This document shows positions 1,286-64,000 of a stretch of DNA of 64,000 bases, one piece after another. Position 1 is the stretch's first letter, and every line of letters begins with the position of its first letter. This stretch comes from Spirulina subsalsa PCC 9445. Lineage in GTDB: Bacteria; Cyanobacteriota; Cyanobacteriia; Cyanobacteriales; Spirulinaceae. The stretch lies in NCBI RefSeq assembly GCF_000314005.1, contig NZ_ALVR01000010.1, positions 1 to 64,000 of the forward strand, given 5' to 3'. Both the position numbers and the translations under genes were made by a program. Below the pieces are notes generated by a model, which saw only the letters and a program-made list of their open reading frames with translations, did no database searches and had not been told where the DNA came from.

Positions 1286-2806
1286 ATGACTGTTATACAC
1301 CAATCACCCAGGAAAGCATCTCGAAACCGATTCAGTGCAACCTCATCCGCATTTTTAGTGCTGGGTATCTTTTCCATCGTTTCTTTTCATATAGACATCT
1401 ACTTTCCTATTGAGATTTCCATCGCTTCAATGACCTTGGTAATACTTTATTTTATCCGCCAATTCAAAACCAAGCGTCTGGGTATGTTGATGCTCGTATT
1501 ACTGCTAGTTTACTTACTTCCTTTTATCCATATTCCACCTTATCTATGGTTTGACTTCAATAGCAAACCTTTAATCTTGTGGGGTCTGGCTGTTAACTCA
1601 TACATGATCGATAGTTCAATTATTGAACTAACAGCAATGTTAGGTGCAGTAGGGGGATTGGGAATGGCTTTTGGTGTTTCCCTTCTTAGGAGCAGATTGA
1701 TTAGAGATACTGGATTGAACTCTGATGGAAGCCTGCGTTTATTTCGTAGTCTTGCAACGCCTATTTGGCTGACTTGGGTGTTCATTGGCGTAGGTTTATC
1801 CTGGCTCAGTGCTCCACAGGAAACCATTTTTACTGCGACATATGCGACATCTGATTCTCTCCTTGGTGGAATAAATTTCAGTTCAGCTTGGATGATGTCC
1901 TATGTTATTCTAACCTTTGCTTTCTGTGATAGTCTACTCGACAGAAACCCTATTCGCAAAGCCATAAAACGAAAAATCATTTGGAGTTCTATTGCTCTCG
2001 TGGTAGTTTTTCTACAGTTGCTTCGTGGCGATCGGGAGTCAGTATCTTGGGTATTTGCTTTGGCGATTGTTTATTTTTACTGGGCTTCGGCTTTCACCCA
2101 GCGGAAAGTCAATATAAAAGTACCTTGGCTTAAATTAGTTTTTTGGGTTTTTGTCCTAGTTTTTGTAAGCATGATCGTAGGTAGCGTACGTCATAGCTTG
2201 ACCGGAGCAGATTTAGGGCTTGCCACTGATACCATAGGGCAAATATTTACTTCCGATAACTTTGGATTCTCTAGCCTAGTTCACGGAACTTGGTCAGCGG
2301 TATTGCTCACTCCTTTGAGTGTAGCTGGAGATCACATCAACAACCTATTACCGCTCAAATGGGGGAAAGATTATCTAAATTTTTTCCTTTCCTTGCCCCC
2401 AGGTTTTCTTGCTGATGCATTTGGCTACGTGCGACCTATTGATAGTTTCGCTGGTCCCGCTTGGGAGATGCGCTATGGAATTGGTGGAACCCACGCATCT
2501 GTAGTACCTTTCATGAATTTTCGCATGGTGGGGGTTTTCCTGATTACTGCACTCTGGTCATATATTTTTGTCCGCTATGAAAGTTTCGCGATACGAAAGA
2601 TTTCTGTCATTAATCTAAGCCTGCTGGCAACCATTGTGATGGCTTCCCCACATTGGCTTTGGTACGGAGAAAAATATGGTATTAATGCTATTATCCTGTG
2701 GGTAATATTTTCTTTTGTATATAGAATTTCATTGGGATTGAGTCGTAAACCATTCGGCACTGTGACAGATATTCTCATTAATGCCAAGTATAAAGTAAGT
2801 GGCTAA
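1286..2806 (+). CDS. Polytopic membrane protein, candidate Wzy-type polysaccharide polymerase
   Basis: The 506-residue product is almost entirely hydrophobic, with about ten to twelve predicted membrane helices beginning near residue 18. It has a larger polar stretch around residues 315-400 that contains GGTHASVVPFMNFRMVG. This is the layout of O-antigen or oligosaccharide-repeat polymerases: many helices plus one big periplasmic loop with conserved Arg/His. No family signature is strong enough to be certain. It sits between methyltransferases and glycosyltransferases in a tight operon, and its last 8 bases overlap the next gene. If it is Wzy, it would join lipid-linked repeat units on the periplasmic side. 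A second candidate polymerase or ligase lies at 24596-26908. Confidence 0.55.
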   Translation: MTVIHQSPRKASRNRFSATSSAFLVLGIFSIVSFHIDIYFPIEISIASMTLVILYFIRQFKTKRLGMLMLVLLLVYLLPFIHIPPYLWFDFNSKPLILWGLAVNSYMIDSSIIELTAMLGAVGGLGMAFGVSLLRSRLIRDTGLNSDGSLRLFRSLATPIWLTWVFIGVGLSWLSAPQETIFTATYATSDSLLGGINFSSAWMMSYVILTFAFCDSLLDRNPIRKAIKRKIIWSSIALVVVFLQLLRGDRESVSWVFALAIVYFYWASAFTQRKVNIKVPWLKLVFWVFVLVFVSMIVGSVRHSLTGADLGLATDTIGQIFTSDNFGFSSLVHGTWSAVLLTPLSVAGDHINNLLPLKWGKDYLNFFLSLPPGFLADAFGYVRPIDSFAGPAWEMRYGIGGTHASVVPFMNFRMVGVFLITALWSYIFVRYESFAIRKISVINLSLLATIVMASPHWLWYGEKYGINAIILWVIFSFVYRISLGLSRKPFGTVTDILINAKYKVSG

Positions 2807-3686
2807 GATTATTGCCCGTATCCGTGGTGGCATTGGCAACCAGATATTTATTTATGCAGCAGCTCGTCGGTTGGAACTGATCAATAATGCAGAACTGGTT
2901 TTAGATAGTGTCAGTGGTTTCGTACATGACTTACAATATCGTCAGCACTATCAACTTGACCACTTTCATATTCCTTGCCGCAAAGCAACTCCAGCAGAAC
3001 GTTTTGAACCTTTTTCTAGAGTAAGGCGTTATCTGAAACGCCAATTGAACCAGCGATTGCCATTTGAGCAACGCCGCTATGTAATACAAGAAAGCATTGA
3101 CTTTGATCCGCGACTAATCGAGTTTAAGCCACGTGGCACAGTGCATCTGGAAGGCTATTGGCAAAGCGAAGATTATTTCAAGGATATCGAAGCAACGATT
3201 CGTCAGGATTTACAAATTCAGCCACCTACCGATCCAACCAACCTCGCCATAGTACAACATATTCACCAACACACTTCTGTTGCTGTACATATCCGCTTTT
3301 TTGACCAGCCAAATGCAGACACCATGAATAATGCCCCTAGCGATTACTACCACCGTGCGGTAGAGGCGATGGAAACCTTTGTCCCAGGTGCCCATTACTA
3401 CTTGTTTTCAGATCAACCTGAAGCAGCAAAATCACGTATTCCCCTTCCGGATGAGCGTGTGACACTGGTAAACCACAACCGTGGCAACAAATTGGCTTAC
3501 GCTGACCTGTGGCTAATGACTCAGTGTCAGCATTTTATTATTGCCAACAGCACATTTAGTTGGTGGGGGGCATGGCTAGCAGAAAATCAAAAAAAACAGG
3601 TGATCGCTCCAGGATTTGAGAAACGAGAAGGTGTAAGTTGGTGGGGGTTTAAAGGCTTGTTACCAAAGCAGTGGATAAAGTTGTGA
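2799..3686 (+). CDS. GT11 family alpha-1,2-fucosyltransferase-like protein
   Basis: The N-terminus (RIRGGIGNQIFIYAAARRL, residues 7-25) is the GT11 opening signature, and the C-terminal block with ANSTFSWWGAWL (residues 249-260) is the other family hallmark. GT11 enzymes transfer fucose from GDP-fucose to galactose-type acceptors. The start is GTG at 2799, overlapping the upstream stop by 8 bases, as expected for coupled translation. The usual HxRRGD nucleotide-sugar motif reads HIRFFD at residues 164-169, so the second Arg and the Gly are replaced. That may mean an altered donor or a weakened enzyme. At 295 residues the protein has normal length. No GDP-fucose synthesis genes are in the window. 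Confidence 0.85.
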   Translation: MAKIIARIRGGIGNQIFIYAAARRLELINNAELVLDSVSGFVHDLQYRQHYQLDHFHIPCRKATPAERFEPFSRVRRYLKRQLNQRLPFEQRRYVIQESIDFDPRLIEFKPRGTVHLEGYWQSEDYFKDIEATIRQDLQIQPPTDPTNLAIVQHIHQHTSVAVHIRFFDQPNADTMNNAPSDYYHRAVEAMETFVPGAHYYLFSDQPEAAKSRIPLPDERVTLVNHNRGNKLAYADLWLMTQCQHFIIANSTFSWWGAWLAENQKKQVIAPGFEKREGVSWWGFKGLLPKQWIKL

Positions 3687-22063: not shown

Positions 22064-22936
22064 ATGGCTCAATCAATACTCCTAACAGGTGCTACAGGTT
22101 TTACTGGAAAATTTGTTTGCCAGAAACTGCTTGAGCAAAAAATAAACTTTGATTGTCTAGTTCGCCCTTCATCTAATTCAAAAAGATTACTCGATTTAGG
22201 GCTAAATTGTGCCGAGGCTGACCTCAATGATTTAGAGTCTCTCAAGAAGACACTACCCAAGTATAAAATCTTAATCAATGTGGCATCCATTGGGTTTGGG
22301 GCAGCACCGACGATTGTTCAAGCTTGTGAAGAGTCTGGAATAGAACGGGCAATTTTTATCAGTACAACAGCAATTTTTACTCATCTCAATGCTTCCAGTA
22401 AAGCCATTCGACTAGCCGCAGAGCAGGCAATTAAAGAGAGCCAGTTAAATTATACAATTCTCCGACCCACCATGATCTATGGAACACCAGAAGATCGGAA
22501 TATGATTCGTCTTTTAAAATTTTTAGATAAATTTCCAATAATTCCGATTTTTGGTAACGGACAATTCCTTCAACAACCTGTTCATGTTGAAGATGTGGCA
22601 TGGGCTATTGTTAAGGTCATTGACTGTTCACAAACTTATCGAAAAGAGTATAACATTTCAGGGCAAGAACCTTTAACCTATAATCAAGTCATTGAAGGGG
22701 CTAGTAAAGCATTGGGGAAAAAACCGATTAAGCTACATATCCCAGTCGCTCTAGCAAGGTCTTTCATTAGAAAGATACAGTCCCTAGGGGTAAAGTTTCC
22801 TATTACAGAAGAACAAATTCTCAGACTTAATGAAAATAAAAACTTTGACCATTCTCTAGCCCATCAAGACTTTGGATATTCTCCTCGTTCCTTTGTCGAA
22901 GGTATTCACCAAGAAATTCAACTCCTAAAACAATGA
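22064..22936 (+). CDS. NAD(P)-dependent SDR epimerase/dehydratase-like protein (atypical)
   Basis: ILLTGATGFTGKFVCQKLL (residues 5-23) is an NAD(P)-binding Rossmann motif. SIGFGAAPTIVQACEESGIERAIFIS and NYTILRPTMIYG are extended-SDR segments. The usual catalytic YxxxK is not obvious: the equivalent region reads TTAIFTHLNASSKAIRLAAEQ, which resembles atypical SDR proteins. In many loci such a protein sits between a WbuB-like transferase and a WbpL-like prenol-phosphate transferase, as here, and is assigned to sugar-nucleotide 4-reduction or epimerisation. The stop overlaps the next gene (ATGA). Substrate is unassigned. Confidence 0.7.
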   Translation: MAQSILLTGATGFTGKFVCQKLLEQKINFDCLVRPSSNSKRLLDLGLNCAEADLNDLESLKKTLPKYKILINVASIGFGAAPTIVQACEESGIERAIFISTTAIFTHLNASSKAIRLAAEQAIKESQLNYTILRPTMIYGTPEDRNMIRLLKFLDKFPIIPIFGNGQFLQQPVHVEDVAWAIVKVIDCSQTYRKEYNISGQEPLTYNQVIEGASKALGKKPIKLHIPVALARSFIRKIQSLGVKFPITEEQILRLNENKNFDHSLAHQDFGYSPRSFVEGIHQEIQLLKQ

Positions 22937-23898
22937 ATACGAATTTTGATCTAGTATGGATAGGTCTAAGTGGTCTAATAAGCTTTTCGATTACTTATCT
23001 AATCAAAGAATATTTAAGCCAAAAACTCCTCGACATCCCCAACGATCGCAGTTCCCACACCCAACCCACCCCCAGAGGCGGCGGCCTGAGCTTTATTGTG
23101 GCTTTTTTGTTGACTTTTACATCAACACAACTATTCCCCAACCCCCCAACCCTTCAACCCCTCCCCCTCTGGCTCATCCTCACCCCCCTCGCCCTCATCG
23201 GCTTCATCGATGACCGCACCAACCTCCCCGCTTCCATTCGCTACCTCGTCCAATTGGCCACAGCCATCATAGCTATCTGGCATTTTGGCCCCTTACCCCT
23301 CCCCAGCTTAATCATCGCCATCCCCCTCACCCTCATCGCCTTCACCGCCCTGATCAACTTCTACAACTTCATGGACGGCCTCGACGGCCTCGTTGCCAGC
23401 CTCACCGCCCTCCAACTCGCCTTCCTTGCCCTCTACCTCCAGCAACCCCACTGGTGGCTCCTTGTCGCCGCCCTCCTCGGCTTCCTCTATTGGAACTGGT
23501 CCCCCGCCAAAATCTTCATGGGCGATGTGGGAAGTACCGTCTTGGGGGCTTGTATTGGAATTGCTCTCCTGAATAGTCCCACCCCCCTCCAACTCTGGTC
23601 AGCCCTCCCCATCACCTTCCCCCTCATCGGCGATGCCATCTACACCCTCATCCGTCGCCTCCTCAAAAAAGAAAACATCTTCCAAGCCCACCGCACCCAC
23701 CTCTACCAACGCCTCCAACAATCCGGCTGGAGTCATGGCAAAGTGGCGATCGCCTACCTCCTCCTCACCGCCCTTATTGCCCTCCTGATCAGCACCCTCG
23801 GCAGTTGGGGAAGTCTTTTGAGTGGGGGAATTGTGTTAGGGGCGATCGCATCAGGAGAAATCTATCTCGACAGCCAAAACTCAGACCCTAAATCCTAG
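22933..23898 (+). CDS. Undecaprenyl-phosphate sugar-1-phosphate transferase (MraY/WecA/WbpL family)
   Basis: The 321-residue membrane protein has about ten helices. It carries the family's cytoplasmic motifs: DIPNDRSSHTQPTPRGGG (about 32-49), the metal-binding GFIDDRT near 92, NFYNFMDGLDG near 137, IFMGDVGS near 193, and a C-terminal HRTHLYQRL loop. It transfers a HexNAc-1-phosphate from UDP to undecaprenyl phosphate, the first membrane step of repeat-unit synthesis. It ends the operon. Base usage changes sharply inside the gene: the first 90 bases are AT-rich and the remainder is strongly C-rich. Another, unrelated initiating transferase lies at 46643-47317. Confidence 0.85.
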   Translation: MNTNFDLVWIGLSGLISFSITYLIKEYLSQKLLDIPNDRSSHTQPTPRGGGLSFIVAFLLTFTSTQLFPNPPTLQPLPLWLILTPLALIGFIDDRTNLPASIRYLVQLATAIIAIWHFGPLPLPSLIIAIPLTLIAFTALINFYNFMDGLDGLVASLTALQLAFLALYLQQPHWWLLVAALLGFLYWNWSPAKIFMGDVGSTVLGACIGIALLNSPTPLQLWSALPITFPLIGDAIYTLIRRLLKKENIFQAHRTHLYQRLQQSGWSHGKVAIAYLLLTALIALLISTLGSWGSLLSGGIVLGAIASGEIYLDSQNSDPKS

Positions 23899-24595: not shown

Positions 24596-26908
24596 CTAAC
24601 TACAATCCGGTTCAGCAATCAGAACCCCTAAATCCCGATTATCCGTTGAAAAGCCTTGAACCTGTGGATTAAAAATAGAACCCGTCTGAGCATGAACCAA
24701 ATACCATGCTGTCTCAGGAGTTCCCACCACTTCCACCGTTTGTCTTTCCTCCGGTGTCTTCAACAGTCGCTGTTCTTGCATCAAAGGTTGAGGCAAATCA
24801 TTCAACATTGAACTAGAAAACTCCCCCCCTACAGGCAGACTATAAGTAGAGAGATTCACAGATAAAGGCTGTGTTGGAGTCAAATCCGGTCTGGGTGAGA
24901 GAATCGAAAAGTCCAAGCGATTCTGCACCCCACAACTTTTTACCAAAAACCAACAATCCCCCGTACACCACCGCCCTAATCGTCCCCCCAAATTCTCCCA
25001 CCAATACATCCCCCTTGACCAACTAATTCCTAAATTAGATTGTAGGAATGGATAATAGACCATTGCACTAATCCAGCGTGAAGTATCTGGCATCCCTTCA
25101 GAAAAAGCAATCGGGTGCTTACGAGGAATCCAACGTCTACCATTCTCTAAAGCTAAAGATATTTGCTCATCTGGGTTGACTGTTATTTCAAAAGAAGACC
25201 TATCTTTTTTAATATCTATAGCCATTGGTGTTTTAAATGGAGTTAGTTGGGAGATAGAATAGGGTTTGCCTTCAGGTGTCTTAAAAACAGCCAACTCTAC
25301 AGACTGACCTAACCATCTAGATATTATCCCAGTCCGATTAGAAATATCTGCATCAAAAGCTGAACCATATTTTGTAAAGCTCAAAGCACAAAATAAAATT
25401 GCTACCAATGATAAACCAGTCAAACACCAAAGAAGATTAGGAAATATATTGAATTTACTTTTTTTAATTAATCGATTAAGTATTGGTTGACTAGGAGAAA
25501 AACTATTTTGTTTTTTGGGTAAATTAGTTACAGAAATACCCGAGACAGTTGAAAATAGAATAGTTTGAGTATAAAAAACTGGACGAATATCATCTAGATT
25601 ACCTAAGACAGAAGGGATCAAAAAGCTAAATAAACTCAATAAAATCAACAAATTTACTTTTTTACTACTGGAATAAGTGTTCTTTTGTAGAGAAAAAACA
25701 GTCAAAAAAGTAGTCAATACTAACCCTAACATCAAGAGAGTATGCAAAACACCAAACTCTACAAATAGCTGTACAAACCAGTTGTGCGTGCTATGGTAAG
25801 CCGTTACATCATAAAATTGACTATATTCAGAAACAAGCTGATACCAGCTTGCATAACCATGTCCAAATAGGGGAGAGTCTTGGAACATTTTCCAAGCGAC
25901 TGTCACTAATTTAAAACGAGCAGGATCTAGAAAAATATTCGCGGGTTTCCAATTATACCCCCAAGATTGAGTTAATTCATAGATCAATAGAGGATTTTTA
26001 AGCAACGACCAAAAAGTAACCCCCAGAATAGAAACAACCAATCCTCCAAACATTAATATGGGAATGTTTTTTTGCTTAATTCCTCTCAAAAAATTATACA
26101 ATCCACAAATACTTATGTAAGCAAAACATAAAACAAATCCCCCGCGTTGGGTCGTAGCAAAAATTCCGACAATCAGAAGACAAGAAAAAGCTGACCAGAT
26201 AAACTTTCTAATTAAATTAGCGTCAGAAAATGCTAACCATAAAACCACAGCCAAACCCGGTGCAATATAAGTCCACACAGGCCCAGGATTATCAAAGATC
26301 TGTGTCATAGAAGACAAACCGTAAGGATTATAGACCAAACTTTTAGGCAAAACCTGCGAAATCCCTAAAAATCGACCAACAAAACCTGTAACAACAACAA
26401 TACAAGCTCCAAAAACCACAGCACTTAACTGAATCTTCCAAGCATGGCGGACAGTACGAGCTAAGATAAACGATAAAGTTCCTAATGTAACGCCACAAAG
26501 CAGAATAAAAAAGTTCCTAATTCCATAATGTTGAGCGACAGAAGCTTGTAGCAAACACTCTATTTTTGTCGCAAAGCCAGGAATCTCTCGGCAAGGAATC
26601 CAAGCTTGATTAGGTGTTTTAAATAAAGAGATAATAGCCCGAGGAGCAATCAACACTAAAGTATTCAACCAAATTAAACCTAGCAATATAATTTCCTGCT
26701 TCAAAAAAAGAATTTTAGAAACCAGTAAATGTCTTTGATAGGTAAAAACAAAAGCTAACACTCCACTAAAGACAGCTACACCAAATAAATCTGGAATAGC
26801 GGGTAAGGTTAAAGCAGGATAAACTGGAACTAATAAATGAACACCAACAACACTCCCCAGCAAAATAGCAAGAGCGGGTAAGAAGTGAAAAAGTTTTAGC
26901 TTAATCAT
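24596..26908 (-). CDS. O-antigen ligase/polymerase (Wzy_C)-like membrane protein with large C-terminal domain
   Basis: The 770-residue product has about twelve membrane helices in its first 510 residues. A periplasmic loop carries LFGHGYASWYQLVSEYSQFYDVTAYHSTHNWFVQL: the HSTHN box is the conserved His region of WaaL/Wzy_C proteins. Residues about 515-770 are soluble and do not match a family I recognise. Such proteins polymerise or ligate lipid-linked glycans on the periplasmic side. It is read leftward, divergent from the Wzm gene and convergent with the DUF29-like gene, so it forms its own transcription unit. The soluble tail is unusual: most ligases end shortly after the last helix. Confidence 0.75.
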   Translation of the reverse strand: MIKLKLFHFLPALAILLGSVVGVHLLVPVYPALTLPAIPDLFGVAVFSGVLAFVFTYQRHLLVSKILFLKQEIILLGLIWLNTLVLIAPRAIISLFKTPNQAWIPCREIPGFATKIECLLQASVAQHYGIRNFFILLCGVTLGTLSFILARTVRHAWKIQLSAVVFGACIVVVTGFVGRFLGISQVLPKSLVYNPYGLSSMTQIFDNPGPVWTYIAPGLAVVLWLAFSDANLIRKFIWSAFSCLLIVGIFATTQRGGFVLCFAYISICGLYNFLRGIKQKNIPILMFGGLVVSILGVTFWSLLKNPLLIYELTQSWGYNWKPANIFLDPARFKLVTVAWKMFQDSPLFGHGYASWYQLVSEYSQFYDVTAYHSTHNWFVQLFVEFGVLHTLLMLGLVLTTFLTVFSLQKNTYSSSKKVNLLILLSLFSFLIPSVLGNLDDIRPVFYTQTILFSTVSGISVTNLPKKQNSFSPSQPILNRLIKKSKFNIFPNLLWCLTGLSLVAILFCALSFTKYGSAFDADISNRTGIISRWLGQSVELAVFKTPEGKPYSISQLTPFKTPMAIDIKKDRSSFEITVNPDEQISLALENGRRWIPRKHPIAFSEGMPDTSRWISAMVYYPFLQSNLGISWSRGMYWWENLGGRLGRWCTGDCWFLVKSCGVQNRLDFSILSPRPDLTPTQPLSVNLSTYSLPVGGEFSSSMLNDLPQPLMQEQRLLKTPEERQTVEVVGTPETAWYLVHAQTGSIFNPQVQGFSTDNRDLGVLIAEPDCS

Positions 26909-26987: not shown

Positions 26988-27890
26988 TTGAGTGTAAGGT
27001 TATTAGGCAAACGTATAAATAGACAATTAACAATAGGATTGACTAGATTGAAGGTGATTAGAAAACTACAAACATTAACCTATGCTTCACAGAACAGAAA
27101 AAACTATTTAAGTTGGATAGACCTACTCAAAGCACTGGTACAAAGAGACTTAGAAGCCCGATACAAAGGATCTATTATCGGCAACCTTTGGCCACTCCTC
27201 AACCAACTGTCCCAACTCCTCATCTACACCTACGTCTTCTCCGTTGTCCTACAAGTCAGGCTGAGTCTCAAAGAACTCCCTGCCAATAATATCAGCTATG
27301 GACTCTGGCTGTTTGCCGGACTTATCCCCTGGATTACTTTTATCAGTGGTATCACCCTAGCAGCCACTTCCGTCATTCGACAACCCAATTTAGTCAAAAA
27401 AGTGGTCTTCCCCTTAACACTCTTACCCCTCGTCCCCATCCTGTCCAGTTTTCTAGAAAGTACATTTGGACTCATTATTTTAATCCTATTTGTGGGAGTC
27501 TCCACCCAAACACTCCCCCCCACGCTACTCCTCCTCCCCCTGATATGGCTCCCCCAACTCCTCTTTACCATTGGACTGGGATATCTCACCGCAGGACTCA
27601 CCGTATTCCTCCGCGACATCCCCCAAACGTTAGGAGTCATTCTCAACTTGTGGTTTTATGCCACCCCCATTGTCTACCCCGCCTCCGCCATCCCAGAACA
27701 ACTCGGCAGAGTTGTATTATGGTTAAACCCCCTCGCAGTATTCGCGGAAATCTACCGGGACTTGATTTTACTAGGGGAAGTTCGGCACTGGGGAGAATGG
27801 GGAGTAACCACACTAATCGCTGTAGTGGTATTTATCGGAGGATACTGGGTCTATCGGCGGTTACAACCAGCATTTGCTGATGTACTCTAG
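26988..27890 (+). CDS. ABC-2 type polysaccharide export permease (Wzm-like)
   Basis: The product is about 300 residues from TTG 26988; the start is uncertain because no ATG precedes the conserved region. It has SWIDLLKALVQRDLEARYKGSIIGNLWPLLNQLSQLLIYTYVFS, the N-terminal amphipathic helix and first membrane segment of ABC-2 exporters. About six helices follow, ending NPLAVFAEIYRDLILLG and the last helix. Partnered with the Wzt-like ATPase 53 bases downstream, it forms the channel that moves finished undecaprenyl-linked glycan chains across the inner membrane. The first 40 residues, rich in R and K, could be a leader before a later start. Confidence 0.85.
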   Translation: MSVRLLGKRINRQLTIGLTRLKVIRKLQTLTYASQNRKNYLSWIDLLKALVQRDLEARYKGSIIGNLWPLLNQLSQLLIYTYVFSVVLQVRLSLKELPANNISYGLWLFAGLIPWITFISGITLAATSVIRQPNLVKKVVFPLTLLPLVPILSSFLESTFGLIILILFVGVSTQTLPPTLLLLPLIWLPQLLFTIGLGYLTAGLTVFLRDIPQTLGVILNLWFYATPIVYPASAIPEQLGRVVLWLNPLAVFAEIYRDLILLGEVRHWGEWGVTTLIAVVVFIGGYWVYRRLQPAFADVL

Positions 27891-27943
27891 AGATTGCGAC
27901 CATCCTAGACCAAGTGGATGGAGTTTCAGACCCAAAATTTCTG

Positions 27944-29239
27944 ATGAGTGAAACAATTATTGACTTGAACAATGTATCGAAGTGTTATAGGCGTTATCAT
28001 CGCCCCATTGACCGATTAAAGGAAATTTTACTGCCAGGAAAAAAGCATTCTCAGGAATTTTGGGCTTTACAAAATATTAATCTGGAAGTAGAGAAAGGAG
28101 AAACTCTTGGCATTATTGGTCAAAATGGTTCAGGGAAAAGTACCCTGCTACAAATCATTGCTGGAACACTTACCCCCACCACTGGAACGATTAACATACA
28201 AGGACGCATTGCCGCTTTATTAGAGTTAGGCAGTGGCTTTAATCCTGATTTCACGGGACGACAAAACGTATTTTTTAACGGTCAAATTTTAGGTTTAAGC
28301 AAAAAAGAAATTGAAGCTAAATTTGATACAATTGCCGCCTTTGCTGATATTGGAGATTTTTTAGATCAACCCCTCAATACCTATTCTAGCGGGATGGCTG
28401 TCCGTTTAGCCTTTGCCGTTGCTGCTCATACCGATGCCCAAATTGTGATTATAGATGAAGCGTTAGCTGTGGGGGATGCCAAGTTTCAAGCACGCTGCAT
28501 GAAAAAAATTCGCCAACTCCAATCAGATGGGGTGACACTGCTTTTTGTCTCTCATGATTTATCCAGTGTCAAGTTTTTATGTCAGAAGGCTATTTTAATC
28601 AATAAAGGACAAATTTTAGAACAAGGAACACCTAAATTTGTAGCCAATCGCTATATTGCGTTACTCAGTACAGATCATCAACCGGAGCACTCTCAGCCTC
28701 CAACACCCCATCCAGAAGTTCAAGATTCCATTGAATTAGAGAATACATCTGAAGAAAATACTGAATTATCAGAATATCACCGACATGGCAATGGGTGGGC
28801 TATCATCCAATCGGCAGTTATTACTGATTTAAATAATGTTGATTTAAAGGGTAAACTGGAAACAGGGTCAAGATTTAAACTGCAAGTTAACATACAATCC
28901 AAGGAGGAACTAGATGATATTGTGATTGGGTTTTCTCTGAGAACATTAACAGGAGTTATCTTATATGGGACTAACACCCGTTTGTTGAAGAGAACTATTC
29001 CCCGGTTAGAAAAGCACCAAGCTTTGACCGTTGCCTTTGAAGTTCCCTGTTATCTGAACAAAGGTTTATATTCTATTTCGATTGGGATTCATTCGTCAGA
29101 GGGAATCAGTTATGATTGGATTGATGATTTGGTTTTGTTAGAGGTCATCAATACTAACCTATGTGATGGTCTGGTTGATCTAGATGCTAATTTAAACCTT
29201 GAGTGTTCTACGGATAAAAGTTCAGCCGTTCCAAGATAG
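27944..29239 (+). CDS. ABC transporter ATPase with C-terminal glycan-binding domain (Wzt-like)
   Basis: I choose ATG 27944 (MSETIIDLNNVSKCYRRY); the frame is open from GTG 27914. Walker A GQNGSGKST lies near residues 58-66, the signature YSSGMAVRLAFAVA near 145-158, Walker B IVIIDEALAVGD near 166-177, and the switch VSHD near 203. After residue 285 comes a beta-rich C-terminal domain of about 140 residues. In O8/O9a-type Wzt proteins this part recognises the capped non-reducing end of the polymer and couples capping to export. Its presence implies that a terminal modifying enzyme exists; the methyltransferase 120 bases downstream is the obvious candidate. Confidence 0.88.
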   Translation: MSETIIDLNNVSKCYRRYHRPIDRLKEILLPGKKHSQEFWALQNINLEVEKGETLGIIGQNGSGKSTLLQIIAGTLTPTTGTINIQGRIAALLELGSGFNPDFTGRQNVFFNGQILGLSKKEIEAKFDTIAAFADIGDFLDQPLNTYSSGMAVRLAFAVAAHTDAQIVIIDEALAVGDAKFQARCMKKIRQLQSDGVTLLFVSHDLSSVKFLCQKAILINKGQILEQGTPKFVANRYIALLSTDHQPEHSQPPTPHPEVQDSIELENTSEENTELSEYHRHGNGWAIIQSAVITDLNNVDLKGKLETGSRFKLQVNIQSKEELDDIVIGFSLRTLTGVILYGTNTRLLKRTIPRLEKHQALTVAFEVPCYLNKGLYSISIGIHSSEGISYDWIDDLVLLEVINTNLCDGLVDLDANLNLECSTDKSSAVPR

Positions 29240-29359: not shown

Positions 29360-30754
29360 ATGATTGATCAGAACAACCCAGAAATTAATGTTGATGATTT
29401 AATGCAGAAAGTGAAGGAGGAAGTGGCAAAAAGAAGATTGGAAGTCACCCCAACATCTCACTCTAATCAGAGCATTATTGATATTATTCACTCAGACTTA
29501 AGTAGAACACATTCTCTGCTCATGAGTCGTTTTGAATCTTTGTTAAACGATGCTGAGTTTCAGGTACAAGATATTGATAAGCTACCGAATAAGCTCAATC
29601 GTTTTCCTTTTACACTAGAAATCATACAAAAAATATTACTTAAATTTTACAAACTACTCACTAAAAAGCAAAAAGTAATCAATGAAGATTTTATTGCGGC
29701 ATTCAAAGAACTTCGAGAAATAACGGAAGTTCAAATCAATCAAAAAAACGAAGAGCTAATCAATGAGTTTAATAAAAGATTTGAACATGAGAGAAATATA
29801 ACACAAGATTTTTATCATGCGCTTGAACAAAAACATCATGCGCTTGAACAAAAACATCATGCGCTTGAACAAAAACATCATGCGCTTGAACAAAAACATC
29901 ATGCGCTTGAACAAAAACACACTCAGCAGATTAAAGCATTACAACTTGAACTGACCTACAATAAACGGGCTTTTGCCAATTTACTTCAATCTTTGGAAAA
30001 CCGAACTGAATCTGTCCCCACTTCTCCGGCAATAAGCACACCAGAAACACCTTATGGAGGACAAGAAGAAGCTCATTTACTGGATGCTTTTTATGTGGCA
30101 TTTGAAGAACGATTTCGGGGCAGTTATGAAGAAATTGCTAAACGACTCACTATATACCTTCCCTTTATTGAAAAAGTACAGTTAGAAACGTCTGACACGA
30201 TTCTCGACGTAGGATGTGGACGGGGAGAATGGCTAGAGTTTTTACGGGAGAACGGGTATCAGGTTCAAGGGATTGACTTAAACCGGATGATGTTAGAAGA
30301 ATGTCAGAGTAAGAATTTAGAGGTTTATGAGGTAGACGCGATCGCACACCTCCAAACCCTACCCGACAACAGCCTCAGTGCAGTCACCGGATTCCACATC
30401 ATCGAACACCTCCCCTTCCCCGCCCTCCTCCAACTCCTACAAGAAACCATCCGCGTCCTCAAACCCGGAGGAGTCGCCATCTTTGAAACCCCCAACCCCC
30501 AAAACATCCTCGTCAGCACCCGCACCTTCTACCTCGACCCGACCCACCGCAATCCCTTGCCAAGTGACCTCATTCAGTTTTTACTAGACAACACAGGATT
30601 TGAACCCGTAGAAGTGCTACCCCTTCATCCCTATGAAGAAGCCCTACAGATCCAAGGTTCAGACAACCTGACCCAACGCTTTAACCAATACTTCTACGGC
30701 CCCCAAGATTACGCCGTCATTGGATACAAACCATGCAACCCATCGCCCTTGTAG
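29360..30754 (+). CDS. Methyltransferase with long N-terminal coiled coil and heptad tandem repeat
   Basis: This 464-residue protein has two parts. Residues 1-225 are largely helical and charged, and residues 154-188 are five copies of the heptad ALEQKHH encoded by a 21-base tandem repeat. Residues 230-464 are a class I SAM methyltransferase with ILDVGCGRGEWLEFL near 279-293, IDLNRMM, and TGFHIIEHLPFPALLQLL. It directly follows wzm-wzt. In the E. coli O8/O9a systems the chain terminator WbdD caps the polymer by methylation and uses a coiled coil as a length ruler, with domains in another order; a similar role is my inference. Codon use flips from AT/G-rich to C-rich at the HIP1 site 30338. 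Confidence 0.8.
   Translation: MIDQNNPEINVDDLMQKVKEEVAKRRLEVTPTSHSNQSIIDIIHSDLSRTHSLLMSRFESLLNDAEFQVQDIDKLPNKLNRFPFTLEIIQKILLKFYKLLTKKQKVINEDFIAAFKELREITEVQINQKNEELINEFNKRFEHERNITQDFYHALEQKHHALEQKHHALEQKHHALEQKHHALEQKHTQQIKALQLELTYNKRAFANLLQSLENRTESVPTSPAISTPETPYGGQEEAHLLDAFYVAFEERFRGSYEEIAKRLTIYLPFIEKVQLETSDTILDVGCGRGEWLEFLRENGYQVQGIDLNRMMLEECQSKNLEVYEVDAIAHLQTLPDNSLSAVTGFHIIEHLPFPALLQLLQETIRVLKPGGVAIFETPNPQNILVSTRTFYLDPTHRNPLPSDLIQFLLDNTGFEPVEVLPLHPYEEALQIQGSDNLTQRFNQYFYGPQDYAVIGYKPCNPSPL
29819..29923 (+). repeat. Five tandem 21-bp units coding a coiled-coil heptad
   Basis: The unit begins GCGCTTGAACAAAAACATCA and is 21 bases long. Copies start at 29819, 29840, 29861, 29882 and 29903; the first four are identical and the last diverges in its final six bases. 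The unit length of exactly seven codons means that gain or loss of copies lengthens or shortens the coiled coil by whole heptads without breaking frame or register. Confidence 0.95.
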
Positions 30755-33111
30755 TCCCCTGGTGGGGACAAGACCTCAAAGGAGGAGCCGAACAACAAGC
30801 CTATCAAGTCGCCACCCGACTACAAAAGCGAGGACACCCCGTTGAAGTCCTCACCACCTGTTGTCGTGCCTTCCAAGAAAACTGGGCAGTCAACCACTAT
30901 CCACCTGGCGTAAAAACCGAAGCTGGGCTGAAAGTTCGTCGTTTCCCCGTCAACCCCCGCAACGCCCAAGCCTTTGATCAAATCAACAGCGTCCTCCTCA
31001 AACTCCCCCCCGAACAACTCAAAATCGGAGTCTCCCCCCTGACCCCCAAAGACTCCGCCATTTTTGCCCAAGAAAACATCAACTCAGACCCCCTCCTCCA
31101 ATACCTCAAAAAACACCAACAGCACTACCACGCCTTCATCTTCCTGCCCTACCTCTACGGCATCATCCTGAACGGACTCCCCCTCGTCGCAGAACGCGCC
31201 TACCTCCAACCCTGTCTGCACAACGAAGTCTACGCCTACCTCCCCGAAGTCGCCCAGATTGTCCACCGCGCCAAAGGCCTCCTCTTCATCAGCGAAGGAG
31301 AAGCCCAACTCGCTCAACATCTCTACGGCCCCGGCATTCTTCCTAAAAGCATCGTCGCCGGAGCAGGTGTAGAAATCCCACTCCAGCGCGACACCACCCT
31401 TGAAAAAATCGGCAAATTTTCCCTCAAAACCCACCCCTTTGTCCTCTGTCTCGGTCGTCGTGACCCCACCAAAAACACCGACCTACTCATTGAAGCCTAT
31501 ACCACCTTCAAACAAAAACACCCTGATTCCCCCCTCAGACTCGTTATAGCAGGCCCCGGCAACCACTCCTATAGTGATTTGACCTGTGGCATCATTGACC
31601 TCGGCTTAGTCGAAGAAAACCAAAAGACCGCCCTCCTGAGCCACTGTCAAGCCCTCTTCCAACCCAGCCGGAATGAAAGTTACTCCCGCGTCATTATGGA
31701 AGCGTGGTTTGAACAACGCCCCGCCGCCGCCCATCGAGACTGTCTCGCCACCTCCCTCGCCGTCTCCACCGCCAAAGGGGGTTGGCTCGCCAGCACTGTC
31801 AACGAATGGGCAGAACTGTTTCACACCGTTGACCAAGCCTCTCCCGCAGAACTGACCCAATACGGCAAAAACGGCCAGCAGTACGCCCAAAATCATGCCG
31901 TGTGGGACAAAGTAATGGAACGGTATGAAATCGCCCTCGGACTGGTTCAGGAAGAGGCCAGGGGTGAGAAGCGAGAATTTTCCTCCACCCTCATGGGATG
32001 GAATCTCACCCCCCAACCGTCCCCCAGTCGAACTCGCCAACTCAAAGCCATTCACCAACTCCTCCCCAACTTTAGTTACGGGGATGCCATCTCCAACCAA
32101 GCCCTAGCCATTCGCAACTACCTCCGAAGTCAAGGGTATTCATCGGAAATTTTTACCCGTTATGTTGAAGAAAAAGTCATCAAAGCGGTTCAACTCCTCC
32201 CCGACAAAAAGCCCAACCCAAAAGCTGGACTGATTTATCACCACTCCATCGGGTCAGAAGTAACCCCCCTCGCCCTCGCTCACCCCGGGGCCAAATGTCT
32301 GATTTACCACAACATCACCCCCGCCGAATTCTTCCAACCCTTTGACCCCAAATTCGCTCAACTCCTCGCCCAAGGTCGCCAAGAACTCCCCACCCTTGCT
32401 CAAACCTTCCCCATCGCCGTGGGAGACTCCACCTACAACGCCTCAGAACTAACCGCTTGTGGCTTTAGCAACCCCTCCGTCCTCCCCATTATCATTAACC
32501 CCAGTCAGTGGGACATTTCCCCAGACCCCCAGTTAATGGCATCTCTCCAAGATGGTCAGAAAAACCTCCTGTTTGTCAGTCGAATTGCCCCCAACAAAAA
32601 ACAAGACGACCTCGTACAAGCCTTTGCCCATTACCTCACCCTAGACCCAGAAGCACGACTCATCCTCGTGGGGTGGGGGAACAAGAGCGAACCCTACTAC
32701 TGTCATCTGCTCAAAATCATCGCAGACCTAAACCTAAATGACCGAGTAATCATCACAGGCAAAGTCAATGAAACTCAACTTCTTGCTTTTTACCGCACCG
32801 CTCACCTGTTCTGGTCTATGAGCGAACATGAAGGCTTTGGCGTTCCCCTGATTGAGTCCATGTGGTTTGATATACCCGTCCTTGCCTACAAGAGTAGTGC
32901 TGTCCCAGAAACCCTACAAGCCGCAGGACTCATGTTTACCCACAAAGATGACCTGGTTTCGATTGCTGCCCTCGCCAAACTCCTGATCCATGATCTGGAC
33001 TTGCGTGATAAAGTCATCAGAGCGCAGCAGCAGCAGCGTCATCGATTTTTACCAACGAGCATTCAGCCCTATTTAGACACAATCATTCATCAATTAGAAC
33101 AAGTTTTCTAA
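30733..33111 (+). CDS. Double glycosyltransferase: two GT4 domains in one chain
   Basis: The 792-residue protein contains two complete GT-B enzymes. Domain 1 (about 1-405) opens ALVVPWWGQDLKGGAEQQAY and has GRRDPTKNTDLLIEAY near 253 and the donor-site PSRNESYSRVIMEAWFEQ near 314. Domain 2 (about 430-792) has NFSYGDAISNQALAIRNYL, VSRIAPNKKQDDLVQAF near 617 and EHEGFGVPLIESMWF near 697. Two-domain GT4 polymerases such as WbdA build repeating backbones in ABC-dependent O-antigen synthesis, so this may be the chain-extending enzyme paired with Wzm/Wzt. Its start overlaps the methyltransferase gene by 22 bases. The gene is strongly C-rich in its coding strand, unlike its neighbours. Confidence 0.88.
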   Translation: MQPIALVVPWWGQDLKGGAEQQAYQVATRLQKRGHPVEVLTTCCRAFQENWAVNHYPPGVKTEAGLKVRRFPVNPRNAQAFDQINSVLLKLPPEQLKIGVSPLTPKDSAIFAQENINSDPLLQYLKKHQQHYHAFIFLPYLYGIILNGLPLVAERAYLQPCLHNEVYAYLPEVAQIVHRAKGLLFISEGEAQLAQHLYGPGILPKSIVAGAGVEIPLQRDTTLEKIGKFSLKTHPFVLCLGRRDPTKNTDLLIEAYTTFKQKHPDSPLRLVIAGPGNHSYSDLTCGIIDLGLVEENQKTALLSHCQALFQPSRNESYSRVIMEAWFEQRPAAAHRDCLATSLAVSTAKGGWLASTVNEWAELFHTVDQASPAELTQYGKNGQQYAQNHAVWDKVMERYEIALGLVQEEARGEKREFSSTLMGWNLTPQPSPSRTRQLKAIHQLLPNFSYGDAISNQALAIRNYLRSQGYSSEIFTRYVEEKVIKAVQLLPDKKPNPKAGLIYHHSIGSEVTPLALAHPGAKCLIYHNITPAEFFQPFDPKFAQLLAQGRQELPTLAQTFPIAVGDSTYNASELTACGFSNPSVLPIIINPSQWDISPDPQLMASLQDGQKNLLFVSRIAPNKKQDDLVQAFAHYLTLDPEARLILVGWGNKSEPYYCHLLKIIADLNLNDRVIITGKVNETQLLAFYRTAHLFWSMSEHEGFGVPLIESMWFDIPVLAYKSSAVPETLQAAGLMFTHKDDLVSIAALAKLLIHDLDLRDKVIRAQQQQRHRFLPTSIQPYLDTIIHQLEQVF

Positions 33112-57040: not shown

Positions 57041-57186
57041 GTTGTTGATTTATCATCAACTTCTGATTTATCAAGAGACTTCTGATGATTTATCACGACT
57101 TCTGGACTTGTCACGACTTCTGGACTTGTCAAGACTTCTGGATTTATCAAGACTTCTGGATTTATCAAGACTTCTGGACTTACTGG
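57041..57186. repeat. Iteron array, likely plasmid replication origin
   Basis: Seven direct repeats with consensus GACTTCTGGATTTATCAA lie at about 57058-57076, 57077-57096, 57097-57114, 57115-57132, 57133-57150, 57151-57168 and 57169-57186. A degenerate half copy (GTTGATTTATCATCAA) begins at about 57043. Five are 18 bases long and contiguous; the first two are longer, the second because of three extra bases. The copies at 57133 and 57151 are identical. The array is next to AT-rich DNA (57190-57290), upstream of a plasmid-type rep gene, which is the standard layout of an iteron origin. Confidence 0.85.
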
Positions 57187-63457: not shown

Positions 63458-64000
63458 GGCTGGGTTCTCCTAGCTGTTGGACAAGGCTTTCAATTAAGAG
63501 ACTAAAGGGATATTCAAGGTCGCTATAGCCGAGGTCGGTTAAGGTTTGGCGGCGATTAATGGCCTGTTTATAGCGTTCAGATTCCCGAATGGAGGGCAAC
63601 ATCAGGTTTTTGCCGACTTCTTCGGTCATGGCTTCCACGGCCAGACGGCTTTCGGTGCTTTGATTGTTGCCAATCCAACGATCTCGGAAGGGTATAACGC
63701 CTAGGACTTGGGCTTGGGTGGCTCGTACATTCTGCATGGACTTTAAAAGGTCTAATGTCCGCACTAGGGAACCATAGCCTTTGAGGGAAGCTTCGGCGGG
63801 AATGATTAAACTATTGGCGGCACCGAGGACGGTTAGACAAATTTGGGAACGCTGGGGAGGAGAATCAATAACACAGACTTTAAAGGTGGAGGTCAGGGGT
63901 TCTAGACGGTGTTTGAGTAGGGTGGCTCCTACTCCACTACTGGCTAAATAGTCCACGACTCCATCGAGTTGGTCATCGGCGGGGATGAGAAACAGGTTGT
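63450..64000 (-). CDS. parA: ParA-family ATPase, N-terminal part outside the window
   Basis: The frame is open through the right edge, so the 5' end is missing (about 183 codons visible). The visible part begins NLFLIPADDQLDGVVDYLAS. It contains FKVCVIDSPPQRSQICLTVL (Walker B-like IDSPP region) and ANSLIIPAEASLKGYGSLVRTLDLL (the conserved V/IP segment after it), then LGVIPFRDRW, all typical of ParA/MinD-type ATPases for plasmid partition. The deviant Walker A lies beyond the window. It is followed by the small partner gene with an 8-base overlap. Together with the CyRepA1-like gene and iterons it marks a plasmid backbone. Confidence 0.8.
   Translation of the reverse strand, partial: NLFLIPADDQLDGVVDYLASSGVGATLLKHRLEPLTSTFKVCVIDSPPQRSQICLTVLGAANSLIIPAEASLKGYGSLVRTLDLLKSMQNVRATQAQVLGVIPFRDRWIGNNQSTESRLAVEAMTEEVGKNLMLPSIRESERYKQAINRRQTLTDLGYSDLEYPFSLLIESLVQQLGEPSHV

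Follow-up and report, generated by a model that had tools for sequence, protein, structure and literature searches.

The 64,000-nucleotide stretch of Spirulina subsalsa PCC 9445 DNA analysed here (the window) carries, at positions 29360..30754 of the forward strand, a gene for a 464-residue protein composed of an anchor-like N-terminus, a helical stalk and a C-terminal class I S-adenosylmethionine (SAM) methyltransferase. The protein opens with a conserved motif, MIDQNNPEINVDDLMQKVKEEVAKRR (residues 1–26, 29360..29437, +), and residues 75–108 (29582..29683, +) form an amphipathic segment, conserved across the family, that may act as a membrane or partner anchor. The hydrophobic moment near this segment was about 0.58, while a helix of the methyltransferase domain reached 0.52, which makes the anchor signal weak. 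Next come the stalk and linker (residues 109–235, 29684..30064, +), helical to about residue 215 and then rich in Pro, Thr and Ser, and the SAM methyltransferase domain (30065..30733, +; approximately residues 239–458 in the domain search), assigned from its domain match and its identity to E. coli O8 WbdD. The stalk had a hydrophobic period of 3.58, reached by 0 of 200 shuffles. Within it, Tandem Repeats Finder (TRF) detected a 21-bp array at 29814..29919 (+; 5.0 perfect copies, 100% matches, score 212), which in frame encodes YHALEQK followed by four HHALEQK units at residues 152–186; each unit would lengthen the predicted helical rod by about two turns. These results agree with the original prediction, made from the sequence of the window, that five 21-base units encode one heptad each and that the coil precedes the methyltransferase. 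No kinase domain was found in the protein by the domain search, and residues 1–115, used as a query against the same genome, gave no second copy beyond the window gene. Three consecutive methyltransferase genes elsewhere in this genome (C2:3272330-3275367, 453–463 aa) gave no match to the query at E 1e-8.

The gene lies, as had also been predicted, behind an ABC exporter, which comprises an ABC-2 permease, Wzm (26988..27890, +, PF01061), and a Wzt (27914..29239, +, PF00005) with a glycan-binding C-terminal domain (PF14524, Wzt_C, E 8.2e-30). Its end is overlapped by the start of a glycosyltransferase gene with two Glycos_transf_1 stretches in the domain search (30733..33111, +), and a glycosyltransferase adjoins the methyltransferase gene in many relatives too. 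The order wzm-wzt-methyltransferase-glycosyltransferase is common to the window, E. coli HS (O9) and E. coli IAI1 (O8). In a small pairwise comparison, the window methyltransferase shared 52.9% identity over 157 aa with O8 WbdD of E. coli IAI1 (E 4.55e-51), and the window Wzt shared 42.8% identity over 409 aa with O8 Wzt, extending into the C-terminal part. A hidden Markov model (HMM) built from 85 family methyltransferase domains matched almost the whole of the O8 WbdD domain (233 bits), while close kinship with O9/O9a WbdD was rejected, since the similarity was only marginal (family HMM E 2e-5). By sequence, the methyltransferase domain is thus related to that of O8 WbdD, an established chain terminator that is a simple methyltransferase and whose added methyl group stops further polymerization (PMC3482155). 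By analogy, the window enzyme probably caps a surface glycan chain.

The domain order of the window protein is reversed with respect to O8 WbdD, in which the methyltransferase is followed by the coil and a SWRITQPLR segment, whereas the window protein runs from the anchor-like part through the stalk to the methyltransferase; in both, the helix separates the methyltransferase at one end from the putative anchor at the other. The SWRxTxPL motif was present in O8 WbdD and in a Shinella protein, and in 0 of the 85 homologues. In a tree of 38 methyltransferase domains, which included these two methyltransferase-first proteins and whose bootstrap had not settled, the O8 and Shinella domains clustered together (100/98) inside the wider family, so that both domain orders occur in one family.

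To describe the stalk across the family we compared 85 genes, consisting of the window gene, 44 from one genome set (with matches in 44 of its 388 genomes, among them that of the window) and 40 from another (51 of 217 matched); both sets held one genome per species, and five duplicate loci were dropped. Arrays scoring at least 100 in TRF were found in 46 of the 85 stalks and in 0/85 N-terminal and 0/85 methyltransferase parts; at a score of at least 50 the numbers were 52, 4 and 2, respectively. Taking for each gene the smallest period that scored at least 60% of the best, the periods were 21 bp (4 genes), 42 (28), 63 (1), 84 (3), 33 (1), 66 (7), 54 (1) and 30 (1), so that 44 of the 46 arrays have a period of 7n or 11n residues, corresponding to the two periods of coiled coils. 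A hydrophobic period of 3.4–3.7, reached by at most 10 of 200 shuffles, was present in 84 of the 85 stalks, and proline made up 0.23% of stalk residues (the last 30 excluded) as compared with 5.5% in the methyltransferase. The stalk, linker included, ranged from 75 to 262 aa. In one homologue, L043 (genome G257), the stalk array had a 10-residue, proline-containing unit, QEKVKPIDEL.

Tandem arrays are common in the Spirulina genome: in 464 kb, made up of the window and 20 sampled stretches, TRF listed 59 rows of at least 100, many of which overlap and three of which fall in the window. For the family, the confinement of the arrays to the stalk nevertheless led us to reject a repeat due to chance or of an ordinary kind. 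Among the genes of the surveyed clusters, scores of at least 100 were obtained for 1/23 Wzm, 0/28 Wzt, 1/28 glycosyltransferase and 26/45 methyltransferase genes. Shuffling the codons of the stalks left 0/85 arrays at this score in each of 10 replicates, while re-dealing synonymous codons with the protein kept left 32–37 of 85, as compared with the 46 real ones, suggesting that most of the signal lies at the protein level and the remainder in DNA-level identity; protein composition as its sole source was rejected on the same counts. The stalk appears to be a hotspot of in-register gain and loss of tandem repeats, with units of 7, 14, 11 and 22 residues. Since the genes share descent, the 46 arrays are not 46 independent events, and the independent pairs described below provide the guarded count.

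To evaluate stalk length in close relatives, as the original prediction had proposed, we compared the copy number of the units and found that it was not invariant, with differences in heptads both within the genus and among Pseudomonas plasmids. The same-genus orthologue L041 (the genus comparison being the window and one other genome) has two heptads where the window has five, a difference of 21 aa in an otherwise gap-free alignment up to the linker. Except for the opening codon of the array, each species had one and the same unit throughout, whereas the units of the two species differed, a pattern that continued turnover of the array would produce. Three Pseudomonas plasmid genes whose wzt genes (0/1239 differences) and first 480 methyltransferase-gene bases were identical included one stalk that exceeded the other two by 14 aa, and in a fourth record (29/1239 wzt differences) the stalk was 7 and 21 aa longer than those of the three. 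Two pairs differed by one unit, 14 aa at 99.0% and 22 aa at 99.4% methyltransferase DNA identity. The largest difference, 112 aa, was found between L128 (G393) and L046 (G365), which carry 13 and 5 copies of a 14-aa double heptad and whose methyltransferases are 96% identical, although it may be overstated, since the L046 genome is a 140-contig assembly in which short reads may have collapsed the array; the window/L041 and plasmid comparisons involve short arrays or complete plasmids. Of 18 independent close pairs, a count that left out L051 (masked stalk bases) and seven genes without the coil-end motif, including the 112-aa pair, five had stalks of equal length and eight differed by 7n or 11n residues (p 0.0025 against the 22.1% expected). 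The variation observed consists of fixed differences between species or plasmids. A Pseudosulfitobacter strain series was uninformative, with all 30 records at 99% identity or more, near-clonal, full-length in the rows listed and with a shorter N-terminal part. In another pair, L106 and L125, the methyltransferase domains were 96% identical while the stalk sequences were, by eye, largely different, as might be seen after modular exchange of the stalk.

Taken together, these observations lead us to propose that the gene encodes a terminator of the O8 WbdD type mounted on a reversed, repeat-adjustable coiled-coil stalk, whose length would set the minimum chain length before capping, a reading that we consider probable, though well short of assured. 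The N-terminus would sit at the membrane or polymerase, the coiled-coil stalk, a putative oligomer, would rise from it with the methyltransferase at the far end, and a growing chain would be capped once its non-reducing end gets to the methyltransferase, so that stalk length would fix the shortest chain that can be capped; export would follow recognition of the capped end by the Wzt C-terminal domain. Gain or loss of repeats would change such a ruler by whole heptads of approximately 1 nm each (PMC5082667) and keep the coil intact, and five as opposed to two heptads would correspond to a difference in the stalk of about 3 nm. The WbdD-like length ruler of the original prediction is thus upheld as regards its sequence features, namely a catalytic domain related to that of O8 WbdD, coiled-coil periodicity and variation in stalk length, while ruler action itself would follow by analogy.

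If this is so, the related clusters would constitute a natural graded series, with stalks one, two, three and perhaps 16 heptads apart. The ruler of WbdD was earlier probed with insertions into and truncations of its coil, which shift the modal length of the O antigen (review PMC5082667), while here nature supplies the variants. Should glycan length follow the stalk, it would show bacteria retuning the thickness of their surface coat without new enzymes and test the ruler model in the reversed order; should it not follow, the result would be informative too, since the ruler model demands it. Variation in repeat units could make glycan length easy for evolution to adjust. More speculatively, and with considerable doubt on our part, cyanobacteria and some proteobacterial plasmids might carry a self-adjusting genetic ruler, a capping methyltransferase on a coil encoded by a tandem array of whole heptads or hendecads, in which slippage or recombination would step glycan length by about 1 nm, rapidly enough for near-identical replicons to diverge and perhaps also for populations exposed to grazing or phages to vary internally.

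The proposed arrangement can be placed among known systems. As in the window, the O9a WbdD gene stands in the same order of genes, and its terminator is held off the membrane end by a coil (PMC3482155, PMC5082667), while that protein differs in being a kinase-methyltransferase of the opposite domain order. Terminators of Klebsiella O4, O7 and O12 and of E. coli O101 also carry the catalytic module at one end of a coil (PMC11231755, PMC13168486); the Klebsiella modules are of other kinds, and the methyltransferases of O7 and O101 precede the coil. E. coli O101 strains in which a methyltransferase that ends in a coil is naturally disrupted have lost terminal methylation and make chains of altered length (PMC13168486). 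The excerpts of these two papers contain no mention of repeat-number variation in the O4, O7, O12 or O101 terminators. Helical repeats are gained and lost in frame in CagY as well, although that is a filament protein on the surface of a secretion system and involves no glycan enzyme (PMC2581425). In Synechocystis, deletion of slr1610, a methyltransferase gene near an ABC exporter, resembled deletion of the exporter genes, leaving the O antigen unchanged and altering the exopolysaccharide (PMC3769361).

A precedent for tuning a glycan enzyme by heptad copy number is NeuO, the O-acetyltransferase of the E. coli K1 capsule polymer polysialic acid, whose heptad-coding array varies naturally in copy number and whose activity rises linearly with the number of heptads (PMC3046976). 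NeuO differs in its 7-bp unit, which gives on/off frameshifts in addition to heptads, in an N-terminal array that is not resolved in the crystal, in being an acyltransferase of another fold, and in that copy number tunes activity and not length. This precedent, together with the effect of coil length in WbdD, tempers the novelty that the original prediction had seen in the idea; a search confined to open-licence literature gave no published report of repeat-number variation in coiled-coil glycan rulers. What appears to be new with respect to WbdD is the reversed domain order and a stalk built from repeats that often vary in register.

Several observations weigh against a repeat-adjustable ruler. 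In E. coli, the full-length wbdD matches listed were of one length for both O8 and O9, and for O9 even at 90% DNA identity, as determined by subtraction of coordinates (O8: 59 of the best 60 of 303 matches had full coverage, and nearly all of these were compared; O9: 48 of the best 60 of 263, the other 12 aligning only with the 3' end of the query, over no more than 13% of it), and the O8 wbdD gene was free of arrays in TRF; this group includes a proven ruler, suggesting that repeat variation is not general to such rulers. A coil was at one time the model for the heptads of NeuO, but a triple coil has since been ruled out (PMC3046976). The expectation that copy-number changes would be in register held for the eight pairs given above, while the remaining 5 of the 13 unequal pairs differ by other amounts; one Pseudomonas allele also has substitutions in and beyond the stalk, which may point to recombination as its origin instead of simple slippage. 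Two of the family arrays have periods that are not those of a coil, one of 10 residues with a proline and one of 18. The window array itself, judged by eye, makes a less strong coil than the arrays of many relatives, because each heptad has a single large aliphatic residue (Leu). In a survey of 45 loci, the window's included, Wzt was directly upstream in 24, of which 16 had a C-terminal domain like that of the window and eight did not; 15 lacked a Wzt in the surrounding 5 kb or so (in four of them less than 4.5 kb of upstream sequence was available), three began less than 1 kb from a contig end and three had Wzt elsewhere. Alphaproteobacterial relatives with a shorter N-terminus adjoin type I secretion genes, with no Wzm or Wzt in the listed stretch.

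The main rival to the ruler is a neutral spacer, in which the stalk merely tethers the methyltransferase near the polymerase, slippage and recombination change the repeats, selection purges only changes that break frame or phase, and the glycan is unaffected by stalk length. The wide range of stalk lengths is compatible with it, the differences between close relatives could be drift, the L106 and L125 stalks look largely different by eye despite their 96% identical methyltransferases, and the link from length to phenotype is drawn by analogy only. On the other hand, changes in the length of the WbdD coil alter chain length (PMC5082667), and the constant length of the E. coli wbdD genes suggests that length matters in that system; we regard a neutral spacer as rather unlikely. 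A second possibility is that the methyltransferase acts on monomers, internal residues or another glycoconjugate, with the coil as a docking scaffold, as might be suggested by the relatives that adjoin genes for type I secretion or DUF4214 proteins and by the several relatives without Wzt nearby; its 53% identity to the O8 terminator methyltransferase and the 16 of 45 loci in which a Wzt with the same kind of C-terminal domain adjoins it make this improbable. A stalk that tunes activity as in NeuO, with a His- and Lys-rich array binding the polymer or partner enzymes so that copy number would set efficiency or recruitment and not distance, would suit the weak hydrophobic core and the His residues of the window heptads (two in each, one in the first), but is improbable, since the units of relatives vary widely in composition (e.g. 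LQTVDTQLQTTHEH) while 84 of 85 stalks retain the helical periodicity, so that the helix and not the charge looks conserved, and the units lie inside a continuous stalk and not at a free terminus.

Returning to the proposed ruler and its N-terminus, a docking peptide common to other proteins of the cluster was rejected, since an HMM of the N-terminal motif gave no convincing copy in the searched open reading frames (best E 0.34), although its sensitivity is limited, as the look-alike N-termini of the Pseudomonas relatives were not listed by it either. These Pseudomonas plasmid genes (L095, L096, L099 and L100) appear, by eye, to have a DUF4214-like domain in the N-terminal part, and genes for DUF4214 proteins are close by in several of them. 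The alphaproteobacterial relatives with the shorter N-terminus are those of Pseudosulfitobacter and Sulfitobacter plasmids (L094 and L097), in which this methyltransferase family perhaps serves another purpose. In L061, a second open frame on the reverse strand (2144-3401) was matched by the amphipathic-segment HMM (E 1.4e-11) and is perhaps a further gene copy or a fragment.

Upstream of the exporter lie a gene for an O-antigen ligase-like membrane protein (24596..26908, −, PF04932) and one for a PF00953-type transferase (22933..23898, +), a possible chain initiator. The window belongs to a 105-kb contig, in a genome that also has a 5.2-Mb contig, and a ParA-like gene at 63729-64000 runs on to 64232 of the same contig; the glycan cluster may thus be plasmid-borne. 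A further repeat, an 18-bp unit in approximately seven copies with 85% matches, was observed at 57047-57182, outside the listed frames of at least 190 aa.
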